Assembly: GCA_030427255.1 (NCBI GenBank)
Contig: JAUHWY010000019.1
Coordinates: forward strand, 1 to 64,000
Source: Bacteroidia bacterium
GTDB taxonomy: Bacteria > Bacteroidota > Bacteroidia > CAIKAF01
Reading direction: 5' to 3'
Length of the DNA: 64,000 nucleotides
Under the pieces are notes generated by a model that was not told the DNA's origin, did no database searches, and saw only the letters and a list, made by a program, of their open reading frames with translations. Position 1 is the stretch's first letter. Each line of letters begins with the position of its first letter. Made by a program: the position numbers and the translations under genes. Shown piece after piece: positions 16,943-53,218 of the stretch.

Positions 16943-17806
16943 TCAAGGTTTCATCCACACCTTGCGGGGTGGAATGGCCAAAGGAATGCCCTCCTCATCG
17001 AAACGCAATTTTATTCTGCGGTTCATGTCCATTTCTAAATCCCAGGCTTTTATGGAGTTTTCTGCCCATAAATAGGTGCGGATTACGGCACCGTCCAAGG
17101 ACAAATAGCGCACAATGACTTCTACTTCCGGTGATCCTTCGGCCTTTTGGGTCTCTGTGCGCGGATCCAAATACAAAGGATGGCTCAAGGTTTCTTCCCG
17201 CAAAATGGACAAAGCCCGCTCCAAATTGGCTTCGAAAGGAACGGTAATGTGAAAAAAGCGCACCACCTTTTGGTCCGCAATGTCACGATTCACAATAACC
17301 TGTGTAGAAATAACAGAGTTTGGAATAATGACGCGTTTGTTTTCGAAGTTTTGAATGACGGTATGGCGTAAGGTAATGTCTTCTACCACACCCATATAGG
17401 CATCTTGCCTGTCCACCTCTATAATGTCTCCGATTCGAAATGGCTTAAACACCACAATCATAATGCCGTTCATAATATTGGAAAAGGCAGTTTGGCTGGC
17501 AAATCCTATGATTGCCGCTAAAATACCCGCTCCGGCAAATAGGGTAACCGCCAATTGCCTAAAGCTGGGAATGGCATAAATGATGTTCAAAAAGGCTATG
17601 ACCAAAATAAGGAAACTCACCCCATTTTTCAGAAAGTTGTAGGCGGTAGGGTCTACATTGATGCGCGCCGATTCTCGTTTGAAATAGCGGTTTAGGGCAA
17701 AACGCACCATTTTGTTGAGCACAAAGGCCCCAACTACAATAACGGCAATTTTAAGTGGGACTTCGTATTCCGTCCACCAAGCGATGGTTGTACCGCTTTC
17801 TTCCAT
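16943..17806 (-). CDS. MscS-type mechanosensitive channel
   Basis: A 287-residue small-conductance mechanosensitive ion channel of the inner membrane, relieving turgor at hypo-osmotic shock. Three hydrophobic segments occupy residues about 15-130; the pore helix region reads GAGILAAIIGFASQTAFSNIMNG, followed by the beta-domain signature PFRIGDIIEV. The cytoplasmic domain runs to the C-terminus with a length typical of the minimal MscS core. The start lies 4 bp after the stop of the glycine-rich protein on the same strand, so the two are probably cotranscribed. No specific regulation is seen. Confidence 0.93.
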   Translation of the reverse strand: MEESGTTIAWWTEYEVPLKIAVIVVGAFVLNKMVRFALNRYFKRESARINVDPTAYNFLKNGVSFLILVIAFLNIIYAIPSFRQLAVTLFAGAGILAAIIGFASQTAFSNIMNGIMIVVFKPFRIGDIIEVDRQDAYMGVVEDITLRHTVIQNFENKRVIIPNSVISTQVIVNRDIADQKVVRFFHITVPFEANLERALSILREETLSHPLYLDPRTETQKAEGSPEVEVIVRYLSLDGAVIRTYLWAENSIKAWDLEMDMNRRIKLRFDEEGIPLAIPPRKVWMKP

Positions 17807-17810
17807 AGGC

Positions 17811-19418
17811 TTAAGGGCAAATGCGGGTTATGGTTACAGAGCCATGGCCGGTATTTACTCCCGCTTGGTTGTTTTGGTTGCTGCCGCTATTGAAACTGCC
17901 TGCACCATAAGAGGGGTAGCTGCTGTTGTACATATTGGTATCTACGCTGCTGCCTCCGGTGTAGCCACCGCCACCACCGCCTTCCCAACGGGTAGCTCCA
18001 CCGCCGCCAAAGCCACCGTTCCCGGGTTTTCCATAGGCTTGTCCTCCTGCCCCTCCATTCAAAAAGGATAGGCCTCCGTCGGCATCGCTAGAAGAATAAT
18101 TGCCGCCGTTTCCGCTAAAGCCGCCACCGCCACCTCCACGTCCATGGCTGCTGCTTTGGCTTTCAGACAATCCACCGCCCGTGCCGTTGTTGGTGGTGCG
18201 GGCATCCGGACCATTGGTTTGCCAATTTTCCCAGTTGGTTCCGTTTCCACCCCCGGCCACAATTAAAGGTTGGTTGGTATTGCTTACCACAAAGCTGCCT
18301 CCGCCTCCGCCTCCGGCAAAAGTAGAACTGCTTATGGGATTTCCTTGGCTGCCTTGTTGACCAACTAAAATTTTGATTACACTACCCCCGCTAAGGTTAA
18401 AAGTACCCTGCATGCTCGCGCCCCTTCCCGGGTTGTGGGGAGCTCCTTGGTAGCCGCCGCCGCCTGCACCAACCGCAGTAATGGTGTAATTGCCGGTGGC
18501 CGGAACGGTCCATTCTTGAATTCCATTAACCACATTCACAACCCCCGTGCCGTAGCTGCTGTTGCACTGTGCCTGAGATGGACCAAAACGTCCCGAATTT
18601 CCGCAAGTAGTGAAGCTCCAGGTGGTCGGCTGGCAATTGGTTACGGTAACCAAAGAATCGTTGGTCGATACACAACCATCCGCATCCGTGACGGTTAGGT
18701 TTACCTGAAAACTACCTGTATTGCTCCAGGATACCTGTGGGGACTGACTTACAGAACTGGCCGGTGTGCCGCTTTGAAAGGTCCATGCATAGCTTGCTCC
18801 GCTTGCGTTTGCACTAAAGGTGCTGCTGTTGTTCACCAAAGGTGGATTTGGGCTTATAGTAAAGGTTGAGTCCGGATTGCTGACATCAACCAAAAATCCA
18901 AAAGGCGAGGAGCTGCCGCAGGTGTTGCTTGCAACTACGGTAGCATTGCGGTTGCCCGGAACGGTTGAAAACCAAACCAAGACCGAATCGGTGCCTTGGC
19001 CGCTCAAAATACTATCGCCGGAGCCGAATTGCCACTGGTAGACGGAGGCTCCTTGCACCAAAGGGGTGGTGAACAATACGGCCGAATCGCCCTCGCACAC
19101 ATGGGCAGGGCCAGCCACCTGGCTAGGTGCCGGCGGAGCAATCGAACAGTCGCATTCCAAAGCTTTCCAAGCCCCGGAAGGGAACCAAGCTTCGATGCAC
19201 TGACTGGTGGTATTGTAAATTTGCAATCCTGTAGCCGGATTGGCAATGGCGTTGCGTTGCTGCAAGCTTAATCGGGGCAACAAAAACCCTCCGGTAGTGG
19301 ATTGGACATCCAAAGTGGCGGAAGGATCCGGTGGGGTGTTGGATCCAATGGTAACTCCTTGGCTAAAAACAGAAGTGTACAAGAGTGAAAAAAAGGCAAC
19401 AAACAAATGCGTTTTCAT
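17811..19418 (-). CDS. Secreted PKD and glycine-rich surface protein (paralogue 1)
   Basis: A 535-residue exported protein of unknown function. A signal peptide (ending TSVFSQG) is followed by the Bacteroidota head motif VTIGSNTPPDPSATLDVQ...GGFLLPRLSLQQRNAI, two PKD/Ig-like domains (second near residues 185-260: YAWTFQSGTPASS ... GSFQVNLTVTDADGCVS) and a C-terminal domain of about 240 residues dominated by Gly, Asn and Ser, starting TFTTCGNSGRFGPSQAQCNS and ending VTITRICP. The same architecture recurs at 51627 and 58781. No classical T9SS domain is visible at the C-terminus. The glycine-rich part resembles the bacterial glycine-rich beta-sandwich domain; adhesion is a guess. Confidence 0.78.
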   Translation of the reverse strand: MKTHLFVAFFSLLYTSVFSQGVTIGSNTPPDPSATLDVQSTTGGFLLPRLSLQQRNAIANPATGLQIYNTTSQCIEAWFPSGAWKALECDCSIAPPAPSQVAGPAHVCEGDSAVLFTTPLVQGASVYQWQFGSGDSILSGQGTDSVLVWFSTVPGNRNATVVASNTCGSSSPFGFLVDVSNPDSTFTISPNPPLVNNSSTFSANASGASYAWTFQSGTPASSVSQSPQVSWSNTGSFQVNLTVTDADGCVSTNDSLVTVTNCQPTTWSFTTCGNSGRFGPSQAQCNSSYGTGVVNVVNGIQEWTVPATGNYTITAVGAGGGGYQGAPHNPGRGASMQGTFNLSGGSVIKILVGQQGSQGNPISSSTFAGGGGGGSFVVSNTNQPLIVAGGGNGTNWENWQTNGPDARTTNNGTGGGLSESQSSSHGRGGGGGGFSGNGGNYSSSDADGGLSFLNGGAGGQAYGKPGNGGFGGGGATRWEGGGGGGYTGGSSVDTNMYNSSYPSYGAGSFNSGSNQNNQAGVNTGHGSVTITRICP

Positions 19419-19483
19419 GGGCTTGGCTTAAGTTTCAAAGATAGCTATTCCCATCTCCCTGTCAAGGTGTTGGGGAGGCTTTT

Positions 19484-19514
19484 TTTGCCTTGCCCAATGT
19501 CGGCATTACCTTTG
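19484..19514 (+). promoter_or_regulatory. Predicted promoter, leaderless type, of the DUF481-like gene
   Basis: TTTG (19484-19487), a 19-nt spacer and TACCTTTG (19507-19514), with the ATG 4 nt later at 19519. Best complete example of the leaderless-type arrangement in the window. Confidence 0.7.
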
Positions 19515-19518
19515 TTGC

Positions 19519-20382
19519 ATGCGTTTTGTTGTCCTCTTTTTTTTGTTTTTGGTGGCTAGCGGCACAGGCGTAGCCCAAATCTTAAACATTGAACAACGCC
19601 GCGAAGATTTGGCCTACGATAGTTTAGTGAAACAGGGCAAAAAAATGTGGTGGCTCGGCAAAGCTACCTTGGGTTTTCAAATGTTCAATAGAAGTGCCTC
19701 TGCAAATGCGCCCGTGGATTTGCTGGGTCTAAACGGGGCATTAAACACCGCCCTGTATCGTAAAAAGCAAGCATGGATCCTGCTGGGGCAGTTGGATTTT
19801 TTACAAATCAACGATGAGCCTTGGCTCAATTTTGGTTTTTTGCATGGCCGTTGGCATGGTTGGCGCAAAAATCGATTCAGTCCCGAAGCTTTTGTGCAGT
19901 ATTCTTACGACAATTTTAGGGGCTTGGACCCGCGGTGGTTGTTGGGAGGAAACCTGCGTTGGCGCATCATCCAAGGAAAAAAGTCCTCGGCCGGAAATCG
20001 GGCCGACAGCAGCGCTCAAACAAGTGCTAAATTCCGTATGGACGCAGGCTTGGGCGTGTTTTATGAGTGGGAGCGTTGGCAACACCCCACCACCAACACC
20101 CTACAAGAGGTCCGCTTTTTAAAAGCAAACAGCTACCTACACGTTCGTTGGACGCTCAAAGATTGGATGGACTTGAACCTAACGGGTTACTATCAAAGCG
20201 GCTATGATGCTTCCATTCGTGACTTTAGGCATCGATTTCATGGCGTGGCATTTATGAATTTACGCCTGCTCAAGTGGCTGAGTCTAACCCAACAGTTCGA
20301 AGGCAGTTATGAAGACAAACCCATCGTGCCCATCACCAAGTGGGTCTTTAGCTGGCGCATGGGCTTGTCTGTGGATTTTTAG
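19519..20382 (+). CDS. DUF481-like outer-membrane beta-barrel protein
   Basis: A 287-residue exported protein. A signal peptide (ending SGTGVAQ) leads into ILNIEQRREDL, the usual start of mature DUF481 proteins in Bacteroidota, followed by alternating amphipathic strands rich in Trp, Tyr and Phe (GQLDFLQIND, SPEAFVQYSYDNFRGLDPRWLLGGNLRWR) and a C-terminal Phe (LSVDF), all consistent with a small outer-membrane barrel. Function of the family is not known. It is followed by an intrinsic terminator at 20402-20426, so it is monocistronic. Confidence 0.78.
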   Translation: MRFVVLFFLFLVASGTGVAQILNIEQRREDLAYDSLVKQGKKMWWLGKATLGFQMFNRSASANAPVDLLGLNGALNTALYRKKQAWILLGQLDFLQINDEPWLNFGFLHGRWHGWRKNRFSPEAFVQYSYDNFRGLDPRWLLGGNLRWRIIQGKKSSAGNRADSSAQTSAKFRMDAGLGVFYEWERWQHPTTNTLQEVRFLKANSYLHVRWTLKDWMDLNLTGYYQSGYDASIRDFRHRFHGVAFMNLRLLKWLSLTQQFEGSYEDKPIVPITKWVFSWRMGLSVDF

Positions 20383-20401
20383 GCAGGCTGTGTAGAATAC
20401 C

Positions 20402-20433: not shown

Positions 20434-20577
20434 ATTCATCATTCCGAGACGGGGGGCACCGCGTCTTTACCTTATCATTGAGAGACGGGAGGCATCCCGT
20501 CTTTACCTCATCATTGAGAGACGGGAGGCATCCCGTCTTTACCTCATCTTCCATCATTCATCATTCATCATTCCCCT
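20434..20577. repeat. AGACGGGA-GGCA-TCCCGTCT hairpin array (third locus)
   Basis: Three hairpin units at a spacing of about 40 bp separated by TTTACCTCATCATTGAG-like tails, bounded by ATCATTCATCATT satellite. The first unit has a mismatched stem (AGACGGGG...CCGCGTCT); the other two are perfect 8-bp stems. The stem sequence differs from the array at 1-215 at two paired positions. Confidence 0.85.
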
Positions 20578-20891: not shown

Positions 20892-21017
20892 AACTTTTTC
20901 TTTTAGTATACATTTATTTATAAAAAGATGCAAGAATTTAATAAGTTTTAAGAGGTGATTTAACGTGTAAAAACAGAAGAAAAACGGTAGGAGAACTGAA
21001 GGTCTTATAGGTTTTTT

Positions 21018-21311
21018 GGGCGCCTTATCCGTCTCCGGCGATTAGCTTCCTCGTGGGATGGGGATAGTTGATTTATGCCGTTTTCAAGGCAGATTAAGGC
21101 GTGGACAAATCGAAAGTCCGCAGTTTACCAATTGTAAATGAGGAACTTGAGGTTTGGCCACAACGCAAAGATGCCGCCAGAATAGGTATAAATCAACATT
21201 CCCAAGTTGCTACGCCGCCAAGCAAAGCCAAGGAGCTTCCAATGGTCGCTCTTGCCCATGCGGCTGCTGTGCACCCCATTTCGGCAGGCTAATTGGCCTC
21301 CGCCGGGGCGC
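21018..21311. repeat. Repeat family B (GGGCGCC palindrome), interrupted by a family A element
   Basis: The outer sequence matches the copy at 27660-27805: GGGCGCCTTATCCGTCTCCGG at the left end, GGAGCTTCC-NNN-GGTCGCTCTTGCC in the centre and GCAGGCTAATTGGCCTCCGCC at the right end. The ends are imperfectly self-complementary. Between the left and central parts sits the 131-bp family A copy (21067-21197). Part of the 734-bp gene-free gap 20892-21625; the remaining 21312-21600 holds no recognisable feature. Confidence 0.75.
21067..21197. repeat. Repeat family A, copy 2 (nested in family B)
   Basis: Terminal inverted repeats GTTGATTTATGCC (21067-21079) and GGTATAAATCAAC (21185-21197), complementary at 12 of 13 positions; adjacent GGGA / TCCC extends the stem. 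The interior lines up with copy 1 at 2662-2877 but lacks that copy's three CTGACGCTNCGGTCAG insertions. The terminal sequences differ from copy 1 yet remain self-complementary. Confidence 0.75.
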
Positions 21312-21615
21312 AGATCTCGCTCCGTATTAAAAGCCCAAAATAAGGGGAGGTCTTGGAATGAAGGGGAAGAAAAGAACCCATTTGTCCTCTTATCTTCTGT
21401 GCTCCACGCGCTGCCTTTTATTTTTAAGCCTTATGGAATATTTTTGAAGGTACACAATCAACCATGACCTCCACTCTGCCTTACAAACGACAGCGCTGGT
21501 TTTGCCCAACACACAGGCCGACCTTTCGAAAAACCAAACGAGCTGCTTTTTAATTGCTTCATTCACCAGTCTAAAATATTGGCTATTTTTATTAACCATT
21601 TTCGTTAATAATATT

Positions 21616-21623
21616 TATCTTTG
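21616..21623 (+). promoter_or_regulatory. Predicted -7 element (TATCTTTG) of the HigB/HigA-like module
   Basis: TATCTTTG ends 2 nt before the ATG of the toxin gene, implying a leaderless or nearly leaderless mRNA. A TTG at 21589 is a weak -33 candidate. Confidence 0.5.
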
Positions 21624-21625
21624 CA

Positions 21626-21958
21626 ATGGAGGTAAGCTTCAAAACTCGAAAACTCGAAAAGCAACTAACCAACCCAAAGGAGATGGCAAAATCATTTGGA
21701 CAGTTGGCTCGCAAGGTGAATCAAAGGCTTAAGGACTTATCCGATGCAGACAAATTAGCTATTATGAGAACCATACCGGCAGCAAGGTGCCACGAGCTGA
21801 CAGGTGACCGAAAAGGGGAATTTGCAGTAGATGTTTCCGGAAACTACCGAATGATTTTTGAACCACTTCATGACCCAATACCCAAAAAAGACGATGGCGG
21901 TTTGAATTGGGACGCAATAACTAAAATTCAGATTAACAAAATAGAAGACTACCATTAA
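21626..21958 (+). CDS. higB: HigB/RelE-like toxin
   Basis: A 110-residue basic protein of the RelE/ParE (HigB) ribonuclease superfamily, expected to cut mRNA at the ribosome. Features are the N-terminal beta strand and long helix (KTRKLEKQLTNPKEMAKSFG), the helix RLKDLSDADKLAIMRTIPAARCHELTGDRKGEFAVDVSGNYRMIFEP with the HELxGxRxGxFAVDVSGNYRMIFEP-type core, and a C-terminal TKIQINKIEDYH strand. It is 22 bp upstream of its partner. The region is visibly more AT-rich than the flanking genes and is surrounded by repeats, suggesting lateral acquisition. Confidence 0.88.
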   Translation: MEVSFKTRKLEKQLTNPKEMAKSFGQLARKVNQRLKDLSDADKLAIMRTIPAARCHELTGDRKGEFAVDVSGNYRMIFEPLHDPIPKKDDGGLNWDAITKIQINKIEDYH

Positions 21959-21980
21959 CAAACAGATTAAAACAAACAAC

Positions 21981-23072
21981 ATGGCAACGAAACTTGAACT
22001 AGCAAAATCTTTACTCTCCCCTCCTGGCGATACCCTTCAGGAGCATTTAGATTTTATTGGCATGAGCCAAGCTGAACTTGCCGAGAGAATGGGAAGACCC
22101 AAAGAGAAAATTAATGACATAATCAAAGGAAGAGAGCCAATCACAACGGCAACAGCTTTTCAATTGGAAAAAGTGTTGGACATTCCTGCAAGCTTTTGGC
22201 TAAACAGAGAGAAAACATTCCGTAAAGAGTTGTATGAACTGCAACAGCAAGAAGAACTCGAAAAAGAAAAAGACTGGTTAGGTGCATTCCCCGTAAATGA
22301 AATGCGAAAGTTTGGTTGGCTACCCGACACAAGAGAAAAACATATTTTGGTTGACAGCCTGCTTAAATTCTTTTGCGTGGCTTCGTCCAAGGAATGGGAA
22401 CGCATATACATTGACGAAGAAGTTTCCGTAGCGTTCAGAGTTTCTTTAGCTCATACCCAAAGTCCGCATGCAATTTCTGCATGGTTACGTAAAGGCGAAA
22501 TTCAAGCAAAAGAAATTGAAATTGCAGATTTTGACAAAAAGAAATTCAAAGAAGCCTTAGCAGAAATTAAGGAACTGGCTTTTTTAATGCCTAACGATTT
22601 TATAAAACAACTACAAATCATTTGTGCCAACTGCGGTGTTGCAGTAGTGTTTACACAAAACTTGCCAAAAGCTCCAATTAGCGGTGCAACACGATGGTTT
22701 CATAACAAACCTATTATTCAACTTTCGGGCAGATATAAAACCAACGACCATTTTTGGTTCACCTTTTTTCATGAAGCAGCACACATTATTTTACATGGTA
22801 AGAAGGATATTTTCTTAGAGAACGTAGAAGGTGCAGATATTGACCAAGAAAAAGAAGAAGAAGCGAATGCTTTTGCAGCTAAAGTATTATTGACAAAAAA
22901 GGAACTGCAACAAGTAATTGATGCAGTTCCATTAAATGAAGAAAGGATACATGAATTTGCTCATAAATTCAGAACACCGGCAGGGGTAATCGTTGGCAGG
23001 CTGCAACATTTAAAACTCATTCCATTCCATATTGGCAATGGGTTCAGACAAAAAGTTGATTTGTTTAATTGA
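21981..23072 (+). CDS. higA: HigA-like antitoxin fused to an ImmA/IrrE (M78) metallopeptidase domain
   Basis: A 363-residue two-domain protein. Residues about 10-85 form an XRE-type HTH of the HigA addiction-module family (LQEHLDFIGMSQAELAERMGRPKEKINDIIKG ... AFQLEKVLDIPASFWLNRE). Residues about 190-345 form an M78 metallopeptidase with TFFHEAAHIILHGKK (HExxH) and a downstream acidic EKEEEANAFAAKVLL helix supplying the third ligand. The HTH should bind the module's promoter and neutralise the toxin; a protease domain could make the antitoxin self-limiting or sense stress. Similar fusions occur in databases, but the role of the protease in a HigB context is inference. AT-rich like higB. Confidence 0.88.
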   Translation: MATKLELAKSLLSPPGDTLQEHLDFIGMSQAELAERMGRPKEKINDIIKGREPITTATAFQLEKVLDIPASFWLNREKTFRKELYELQQQEELEKEKDWLGAFPVNEMRKFGWLPDTREKHILVDSLLKFFCVASSKEWERIYIDEEVSVAFRVSLAHTQSPHAISAWLRKGEIQAKEIEIADFDKKKFKEALAEIKELAFLMPNDFIKQLQIICANCGVAVVFTQNLPKAPISGATRWFHNKPIIQLSGRYKTNDHFWFTFFHEAAHIILHGKKDIFLENVEGADIDQEKEEEANAFAAKVLLTKKELQQVIDAVPLNEERIHEFAHKFRTPAGVIVGRLQHLKLIPFHIGNGFRQKVDLFN

Positions 23073-23329: not shown

Positions 23330-23474
23330 GCGCCCCTGACCGAACGGATACCCCACAGGGGGGCGGGCCGCCGGGCTTAGGACACGGAGGCGACCCTAGA
23401 AGCCCCCGTAGGCCTTAGCCCGGCGTGACCGGCCACCGAGGAGTAGCAGGGAGGGCAGGATAAGGCGCCCAAAA
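23330..23474. repeat. GC-rich palindrome ending in the family B GGGCGCC end
   Basis: An internal inverted repeat (CGCCGGGCTTAGGAC against GGCCTTAGCCCGGCG) forms a long imperfect stem. On the minus strand the element begins TTTTGGGCGCCTTATCC, matching the left ends of family B at 21018, 27660 and 40918. No gene is seen. Confidence 0.6.
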
Positions 23475-27625: not shown

Positions 27626-27659
27626 AAGCGTACTGCATTTTTTCCCTTGTTTTTTATTT

Positions 27660-27805
27660 GGGCGCCTAATCCGTCTCCGGCCATTAGCTGCCTCGTAGAT
27701 TTGCCACACAGCCAAGCATGGCCAAGGAGCTTCCTGTGGTCGCTCTTGCCCCTGCGGCTGCTGGGCAATCTACTTCGGCAGGCTAATTGGCCTCCGCCGG
27801 GGCGC
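27660..27805. repeat. Repeat family B, uninterrupted copy
   Basis: A 146-bp imperfect palindrome running from GGGCGCCTAATCCGTCTCCGG to CTCCGCCGGGGCGC. Inner arms GTAGATTTGCC and GGGCAATCTAC pair with each other; the centre has GGAGCTTCCTGTGGTCGCTC. A T-run follows (CTTTTT), so it might also end transcription of the epimerase gene. It lies in the 383-bp gap before the LytTR gene. Confidence 0.75.
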
Positions 27806-40816: not shown

Positions 40817-40915
40817 AGACTAGGGTAGTATATCCTACAAAAATAAACGAATCTGGATGTCCTGCAAGTATTTATCCGCCTTTTTCTTTAAACCATGTTA
40901 ATGATAACTTAGCAT

Positions 40916-41045
40916 TTGGGCGCCTTAACGGGCTTTCGGCTATACGCCCAATAAGAAAAAGGGAAATCCGCCGTGTGCCATGGGAGCTTCCAAGGTCGCT
41001 CCATGCCACCCTGGCGGCTTTAACCCTTTTCCTCATTGGGGGTGC
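40916..41045. repeat. Repeat family B-related long hairpin
   Basis: Begins TTGGGCGCCTTAACGGGC like the other family B ends. Bases 40947-41040 form one long imperfect hairpin whose outer arms are CCCAATAAGAAAAAGGG and CCCTTTTCCTCATTGGG, with GGGAGCTTCCAAGGTCGCTC at the centre. It fills most of the 274-bp space between two minus-strand genes. Confidence 0.7.
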
Positions 41046-53145: not shown

Positions 53146-53218
53146 TGGGGTAAAGCGGCTATTATTTTTTAAGAAAGAGGTTTTGGGGGCCTTTTCCATA
53201 GGTCATTTTTTTATCCTC

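Follow-up and report, generated by a model that had tools for sequence, protein, structure and literature searches.

Gene organization of the locus

Two open reading frames on the forward strand, genes A and B, occupy positions 21626–21958 and 21981–23072 of the window (the whole stretch of 64,000 nucleotides that was analysed), separated by 22 nt. The two genes and their associated features are as follows:

21589..21611, + strand: candidate autoregulatory operator, TTATTAAC-N7-GTTAATAA (core TTAAC-N7-GTTAA), with perfect 8-nt arms, directly upstream of A
21616..21623, + strand: TATCTTTG (TAnnTTTG), a probable -7 promoter box of the Bacteroidota type, lying 2 nt ahead of the start codon of A
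21626..21958, + strand: gene A, predicted HigB-family (PF05015) RNase toxin, 110 aa, assigned by Pfam, profile, fold and residues
21981..23072, + strand: gene B, 363 aa, HigA HTH antitoxin/repressor (predicted role) with an M78 (ImmA/IrrE/CapP-type) zinc peptidase; HTH at residues ~13–100, a helical middle region, M78 peptidase at ~206–343
22422..22451, + strand: B residues 148–157, a low-confidence loop that connects the HTH/middle region to the protease; hypothetical cleavage or binding segment

The first-pass annotation had described the region as AT-rich, and the base composition agrees: the GC contents of A and B are 42 and 38%, respectively, versus 48% for the window, and their GC3 values are 42 and 32%, versus 51–62% in the adjoining genes. 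The neighbouring genes in the window encode a DUF481-like protein, a rhodanese, a ferritin-like protein and thioredoxin-rhodanese proteins, and a domain search of the window ORFs found no defence genes beside the module. No RNA families were found at 19.5–25 kb of the window. There is no tRNA integration site near the module, the tRNAs being located at 31.4 and 58.6 kb.

The flanking repeats, which had been regarded as mobile-looking, are present, but they do not have the character of element ends. A perfect 17-nt inverted repeat lies on both sides of the module (21014–21030 and 23458–23474), and was considered as an element boundary. The same motif, TTTTGGGCGCCTTATCC, also occurs in the window at 27656–27672, 40914–40930 and 53181–53197, and the 3.2-Mb genome carries 10 exact copies and 35 copies with one mismatch, with none for the motif read backwards. 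The motif thus belongs to a family of repeats dispersed through this genome and does not mark element ends, so that the boundary was rejected. Longer repeats related to TTTTGGGCGCCTTATCC, at 21012–21311, also occur in a congener. At 20436–20548 there are three tandem repeats of 36 nt, each unit containing the hairpin GACGGG-N6-CCCGTC; relatives of this unit number dozens in the nearest congener, often in tandem.

Gene A encodes a predicted HigB-family toxin

The product of gene A matched PF05015 HigB-like_toxin in Pfam (3.4e-6, over the curated cut-off) and the P. vulgaris HigB profile (2.4e-7). Its AlphaFold model, built from homologues, had a pLDDT of 94.5, and the best Foldseek match was P. 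vulgaris HigB 5ixl (E 3e-6, TM 0.71/0.82); the top matches were all P. vulgaris HigB, ribosome complexes included, and the Y91A and delta-H92 entries of this protein were among the matches. The candidate catalytic residues H56, D108, Y109 and H110 correspond to the HigB catalytic set, which in P. vulgaris comprises H54, D90, Y91 and H92. In the alignment of A, H56, R75 and H110 are invariant, and D108 and Y109 are conserved to at least 90%. By sequence, predicted fold and catalytic residues, A is a HigB-family protein, in line with the HigB-type toxin gene that had been proposed at 21626. Its toxicity, through ribosome-dependent mRNA cleavage, would follow from what is known of the family.

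Gene B joins a HigA-type HTH to an M78 peptidase

The fusion of a HigA-like HTH and an M78 protease in one 363-residue chain, as first proposed, was borne out by the domain matches and an intact zinc site. In Pfam, B matched PF06114 Peptidase_M78 (3.2e-13) and HTH_3 (4.5e-6), and its N-terminus matched TIGR02607 HigA (2.5e-12) at 46.5 bits, about one bit short of the curated cut-off of 47.7. In the AlphaFold model, also built from homologues (pLDDT 88.8), residues ~10–102 had HigA structures as their best matches (Z up to 13.8), and for residues 190–358 the nearest solved structure was CapP 7t5t (Z 8.0). The zinc-site candidates are H264, E265, H268 and E292, with HEAAH at residues 264–268.

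Across 62 genome homologues of B, collected with search patterns that did not contain the HExxH motif, H264 and E265 are conserved to 98% and H268 and E292 to 100%, and HExxH is intact in 61 copies. The corresponding figure for the viral loci (46/46) is not evidence of conservation because their search patterns held the motif. Degeneration of the zinc site in close homologues had been named as an observation that would speak against the first-pass interpretation; it was found in only one of the 62 genome copies, a homologue 61% identical to B (L021:4001-5137), in which QLAAH replaces HExxH and A is intact. Provided that the MAG sequence is correct, this copy is a natural protease-dead variant. 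In four further homologues (L015, L016, L017 and L031), B ends at approximately residue 304–313, shortly past the third zinc ligand, so that the last ~50 residues are missing, and A is intact. Nearly one break point is shared by L015–L017; a frameshift was considered for these three (stop near residue 312), but no continuation was found in other frames, and the form was treated as an inherited truncation.

The loop at residues 148–157 deserves separate mention. Its residues 148–154 have a pLDDT below 50, yet F152 (85%), R153 (81%) and S155 (98%) are conserved, forming the motif F152-R153-x-S155. Conservation in a stretch that lacks predicted structure would be expected of a site for cleavage or docking, and we put forward such a role for the F-R-x-S loop as a hypothesis based on the model. 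By analogy with characterized families, B would both neutralise A and repress the promoter.

Candidate operator and promoter

The dyad upstream of A was evaluated using a fixed rule: TTAAC, TTTAC, TTACC or TTATC plus the matching right arm, with an N7 spacer, no more than 70 nt from the start of A. The rule was derived from the genome set, and the viral loci were fetched afterwards as a separate test. It was satisfied in 43 of the 52 genome loci with full-length A (shuffle mean 0.16, max 3) and, unchanged, in 16 of the 41 viral loci (shuffle mean 0.11, max 2), counts that do not represent independent events because both sets include near-copies. The half-sites vary in a matched fashion across loci, with TTAAC/GTTAA in most Bacteroidota and Cyanobacteria, TTTAC/GTAAA in Ignavibacteria and others, and TTACC/GGTAA in the Mucilaginibacter–Pedobacter group. 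Between the dyad and A, a box like TATCTTTG occupies the same spot in most close homologues; it fits the Bacteroidota -7 consensus, TAnnTTTG, and is a probable promoter element, so placed that the mRNA may be nearly leaderless. The half-site of P. aeruginosa HigA is TTAAC, identical to that of the dyad described here (PMC6987408). Given this identity and the conservation of the dyad in two sets of loci, the operon is probably autorepressed by the HigA-type HTH of B at this candidate operator.

Conservation and horizontal transfer of the pair

The suggested check for conserved synteny showed that the pair is retained: B is preceded by A, or by what can still be identified as a remnant of A, in 59 of the 62 genome loci (the window counted) and in 41 of the 46 viral contigs, and the spacing in most loci ranges from an 11-nt overlap to a gap of ~35 nt. 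Versus close homologues, dN/dS was 0.05–0.15 for A and 0.05–0.08 for B; both genes are under purifying selection. Since the pair is also conserved across phyla, its arrangement is not due to chance. In one locus (L002), B is intact and A is frameshifted.

Regarding the origin of the module, the tree places Cyclobacteriaceae, Saprospiraceae, Flectobacillaceae and a Halomonas bin among the relatives of the window sequence, and the gene was absent from all 15 other genomes of the window's family that were searched. The mixed-taxon tree and this patchy occurrence therefore indicate that the module moves laterally and, as judged from these comparisons, is horizontally acquired and mobile. Relatives occur on plasmids and on viral contigs, and restriction-modification genes adjoin them in a minority only. 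The nearest congener (G055) is without the module and retains both flanks, with the left block (16952–20383) at 87% and the right block (23325 onwards) at 86% identity. In that genome, ~13 kb lies between the two blocks and their relative orientation is opposite, so that a clean empty site could not be read. In one gut phage (NatCom_20922, 1980–3035), an HTH-M78 protein annotated as a transcriptional regulator is encoded between the terminase and portal genes; two small hypothetical ORFs precede it, and there is no annotated toxin.

PD-lambda-2 and the third gene

PD-lambda-2 is a three-gene anti-phage system of E. coli that provides abortive defence (Vassallo et al. 2022, PMC9519451). Our comparison with it rests on PADLOC models and the published description. 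As in the window, a HigB-like gene is followed by a HigA-HTH protein with a C-terminal peptidase, and B residues 22–343 match PD-Lambda-2_B (PDLC03982) at 1.7e-35. The first genes differ: A is PF05015-type, whereas the PD-Lambda-2_A models match PF09907-type HigB; the PD-Lambda-2_A model PDLC03981 misses A and matches two other genes of this genome, and A had no match in PADLOC at E<=1. The same genome carries a second, unrelated TA pair (L063, G000:C10:23280-23555), consisting of a PF09907-type HigB and an adjoining HTH protein. This HigB matches the PD-Lambda-2_A models at 1e-36 though no HTH-peptidase is nearby; therefore, the PADLOC PD-Lambda-2_A model alone is not specific.

The module also differs from PD-lambda-2 in being without a third gene, C. 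A search of the whole genome at E<=10 gave no hit to PDLC03983 (PD-Lambda-2_C) or to PF14350 Beta_protein, and a third component in this genome was thus rejected. Six relatives (L034–L039), which form a single fully supported branch in the tree, have a PF14350 Beta_protein gene directly after B, together with a PF05015-type toxin, and Beta_protein was found anywhere in only 1 of the 43 other genomes searched. Among the sampled relatives, two genes are thus the norm, with the three-gene form making up one branch.

Proposed mechanism and alternative explanations

That A and B form a TA pair of the HigB class, autoregulated through the HTH, appears highly probable. The complete chain of events, namely a horizontally acquired, autoregulated HigBA-class type II TA in which cleavage of the HTH or linker by the protein's own M78 domain releases HigB, we consider about as likely to hold as to fail. 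Under this proposal, B would bind TTAAC-N7-GTTAA upstream of the operon via its HigA-type HTH, repress transcription, and hold HigB (A) inactive in a complex. When triggered, most plausibly by ssDNA, DNA damage or phage takeover by analogy with PprI and CapP, the M78 domain would serve as a release switch by cutting the HTH or linker of B, in cis or in trans; the operon would then be de-repressed, and the freed HigB would cut ribosome-bound mRNA and stop growth (abortive infection or stress arrest). More speculatively, and in our view with a rather low probability, the FRxS segment (residues 148–157) may be the built-in substrate or pseudo-substrate of a single-chain LexA-like sensor, with ssDNA- or phage-triggered self-cleavage of B de-repressing the operon and releasing HigB. 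If true, a two-gene module would accomplish what takes more genes in CapH/CapP or PD-lambda-2. We know of no self-cleavage in a B-type protein. In favour of the proposal are the predicted HigB fold and the catalytic residues of A, the conservation of the zinc site, the upstream dyad, the gene pair and the FRxS motif, and the purifying selection on both genes. Analogy also favours it: M78 relatives of the CapP/PprI type cleave HTH repressors upon ssDNA activation (PMC10904395, PMC13373217), and here the HTH sits on the same chain; in addition, abortive phage defence is provided by PD-lambda-2, the closest relative that has been tested. On the other side, PD-lambda-2 defence requires the P4-antitoxin-like gene C (PMC9519451), the counterpart of which is absent here, the module has no adjoining defence genes in the window, and a few homologues have lost HExxH (one) or the last ~50 residues of B (four).

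The PD-lambda-2 result also cautions us against the toxin and antitoxin roles that had been assigned to A and B, which may be reversed. In that system, overexpression of the HTH-peptidase PD-lambda-2B proved toxic, and the cells were rescued by HigB-like PD-lambda-2A (PMC9519451); by analogy, unrestrained DNA binding or proteolysis would make B toxic, with A acting as an inhibitor or co-repressor. The stronger constraint on B, in terms of dN/dS, points in the same direction. However, A belongs to a different HigB subfamily (PF05015, not PF09907-type), so that the toxicity result may not carry over, and its HigB catalytic residues are close to invariant, a conservation that the role of an inhibitor alone would not demand; moreover, the locus with an intact B and a frameshifted A fits an antitoxin without its toxin better than the converse. 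We regard reversed roles as unlikely, though deserving of attention.

Two further explanations appear slightly less probable still, one of which concerns the target of the protease. The M78 domain may not cut B at all, serving instead to sense a ligand or metal, or cleaving another host or phage protein, with A freed by housekeeping proteases as in ordinary HigBA. The HExxH-less homologue with an intact A and the four homologues truncated past the third zinc ligand are consistent with this, as is the fact that cleavage in the superfamily is known in trans on the separate repressors DdrO, CapH and ImmR (PMC10904395, PMC10440598), whereas the conservation of the zinc ligands and catalytic Glu (98–100% in the 62 homologues) and the fusion of the natural type of substrate, an HTH repressor, to the protease argue for cleavage of B. 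Alternatively, the pair may be an ordinary mobile TA kept by post-segregational killing without host benefit, an explanation that is compatible with the proposed mechanism. Its low GC content, absence from the 15 other family genomes, position at the junction of two blocks rearranged in the nearest congener, and occurrence on plasmids and viral contigs would all suit such a selfish cassette; this would leave the retention of a conserved protease unexplained, and the restriction-modification genes adjoining some relatives, as well as the phage-defence function of one relative (PMC9519451), speak against it.

Comparison with known systems

The module resembles the HigBA systems of P. vulgaris, P. 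aeruginosa and P. putida (GraTA) in toxin fold, catalytic residues, toxin-first order, HigA-type HTH and TTAAC half-site, and differs from them in its 363-aa antitoxin with a fused M78 peptidase and in half-sites placed 7 nt apart. With CapH/CapP, DdrO/PprI(IrrE) and ImmR/ImmA, it shares an M78-type protease and an Xre HTH as the candidate substrate; in those systems, protease and repressor are separate chains and there is no HigB toxin. CapP is a CBASS-associated protease, and its ssDNA-bound form cleaves the repressor CapH (PMC13373217, PMC10904395). RosmerTA (RmrA/RmrT) likewise combines an antitoxin carrying an HTH and an ImmA-type protease with a toxin partner (PMC10440598). However, the RmrA models reached at best 8e-15 on B, compared with 1.7e-35 for PD-Lambda-2_B, A was without a PADLOC match, and the HTH and toxin of the window are HigA-type and HigB-type, respectively.

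The closest precedent is that of Makarova et al. 2009, who described Xre-COG2856 fusions beside RelE toxins, hypothesized that the protease cuts the repressor in a LexA-like manner, and named the Microscilla sp. PRE1 plasmid pSD15 (PMC2701414). This plasmid (L079) carries both genes, and its B is 62% identical along the full length of the protein. The window copy, from a 3.2-Mb genome assembly, is a further member of the group and does not differ from those fusions in anything fundamental. The first-pass annotation had located the novelty in the mechanism, which does not stand, since HTH cleavage was proposed in 2009 and suggested again for RosmerTA-like systems in the NetFlax paper of 2023 (PMC10440598). 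The architecture, the link to RelE-type toxins and the idea of LexA-like self-cleavage are thus already published. Toxin release by a built-in protease is a prediction standing since 2009, and the sole tested relative behaved unexpectedly, its fusion protein being toxic. The module offers a compact two-gene system whose candidate operator is clear and whose active sites are intact, and it has many natural variants: some carry a third gene and others do not, one is HExxH-dead and four are truncated. The additions made here are modest, comprising the phylum-wide candidate operator, the two-/three-gene split, the subfamily difference of A, and the HExxH-loss and truncation variants. Overall, the window module represents a known kind of system, of which it is a well-preserved example, rather than a new one.
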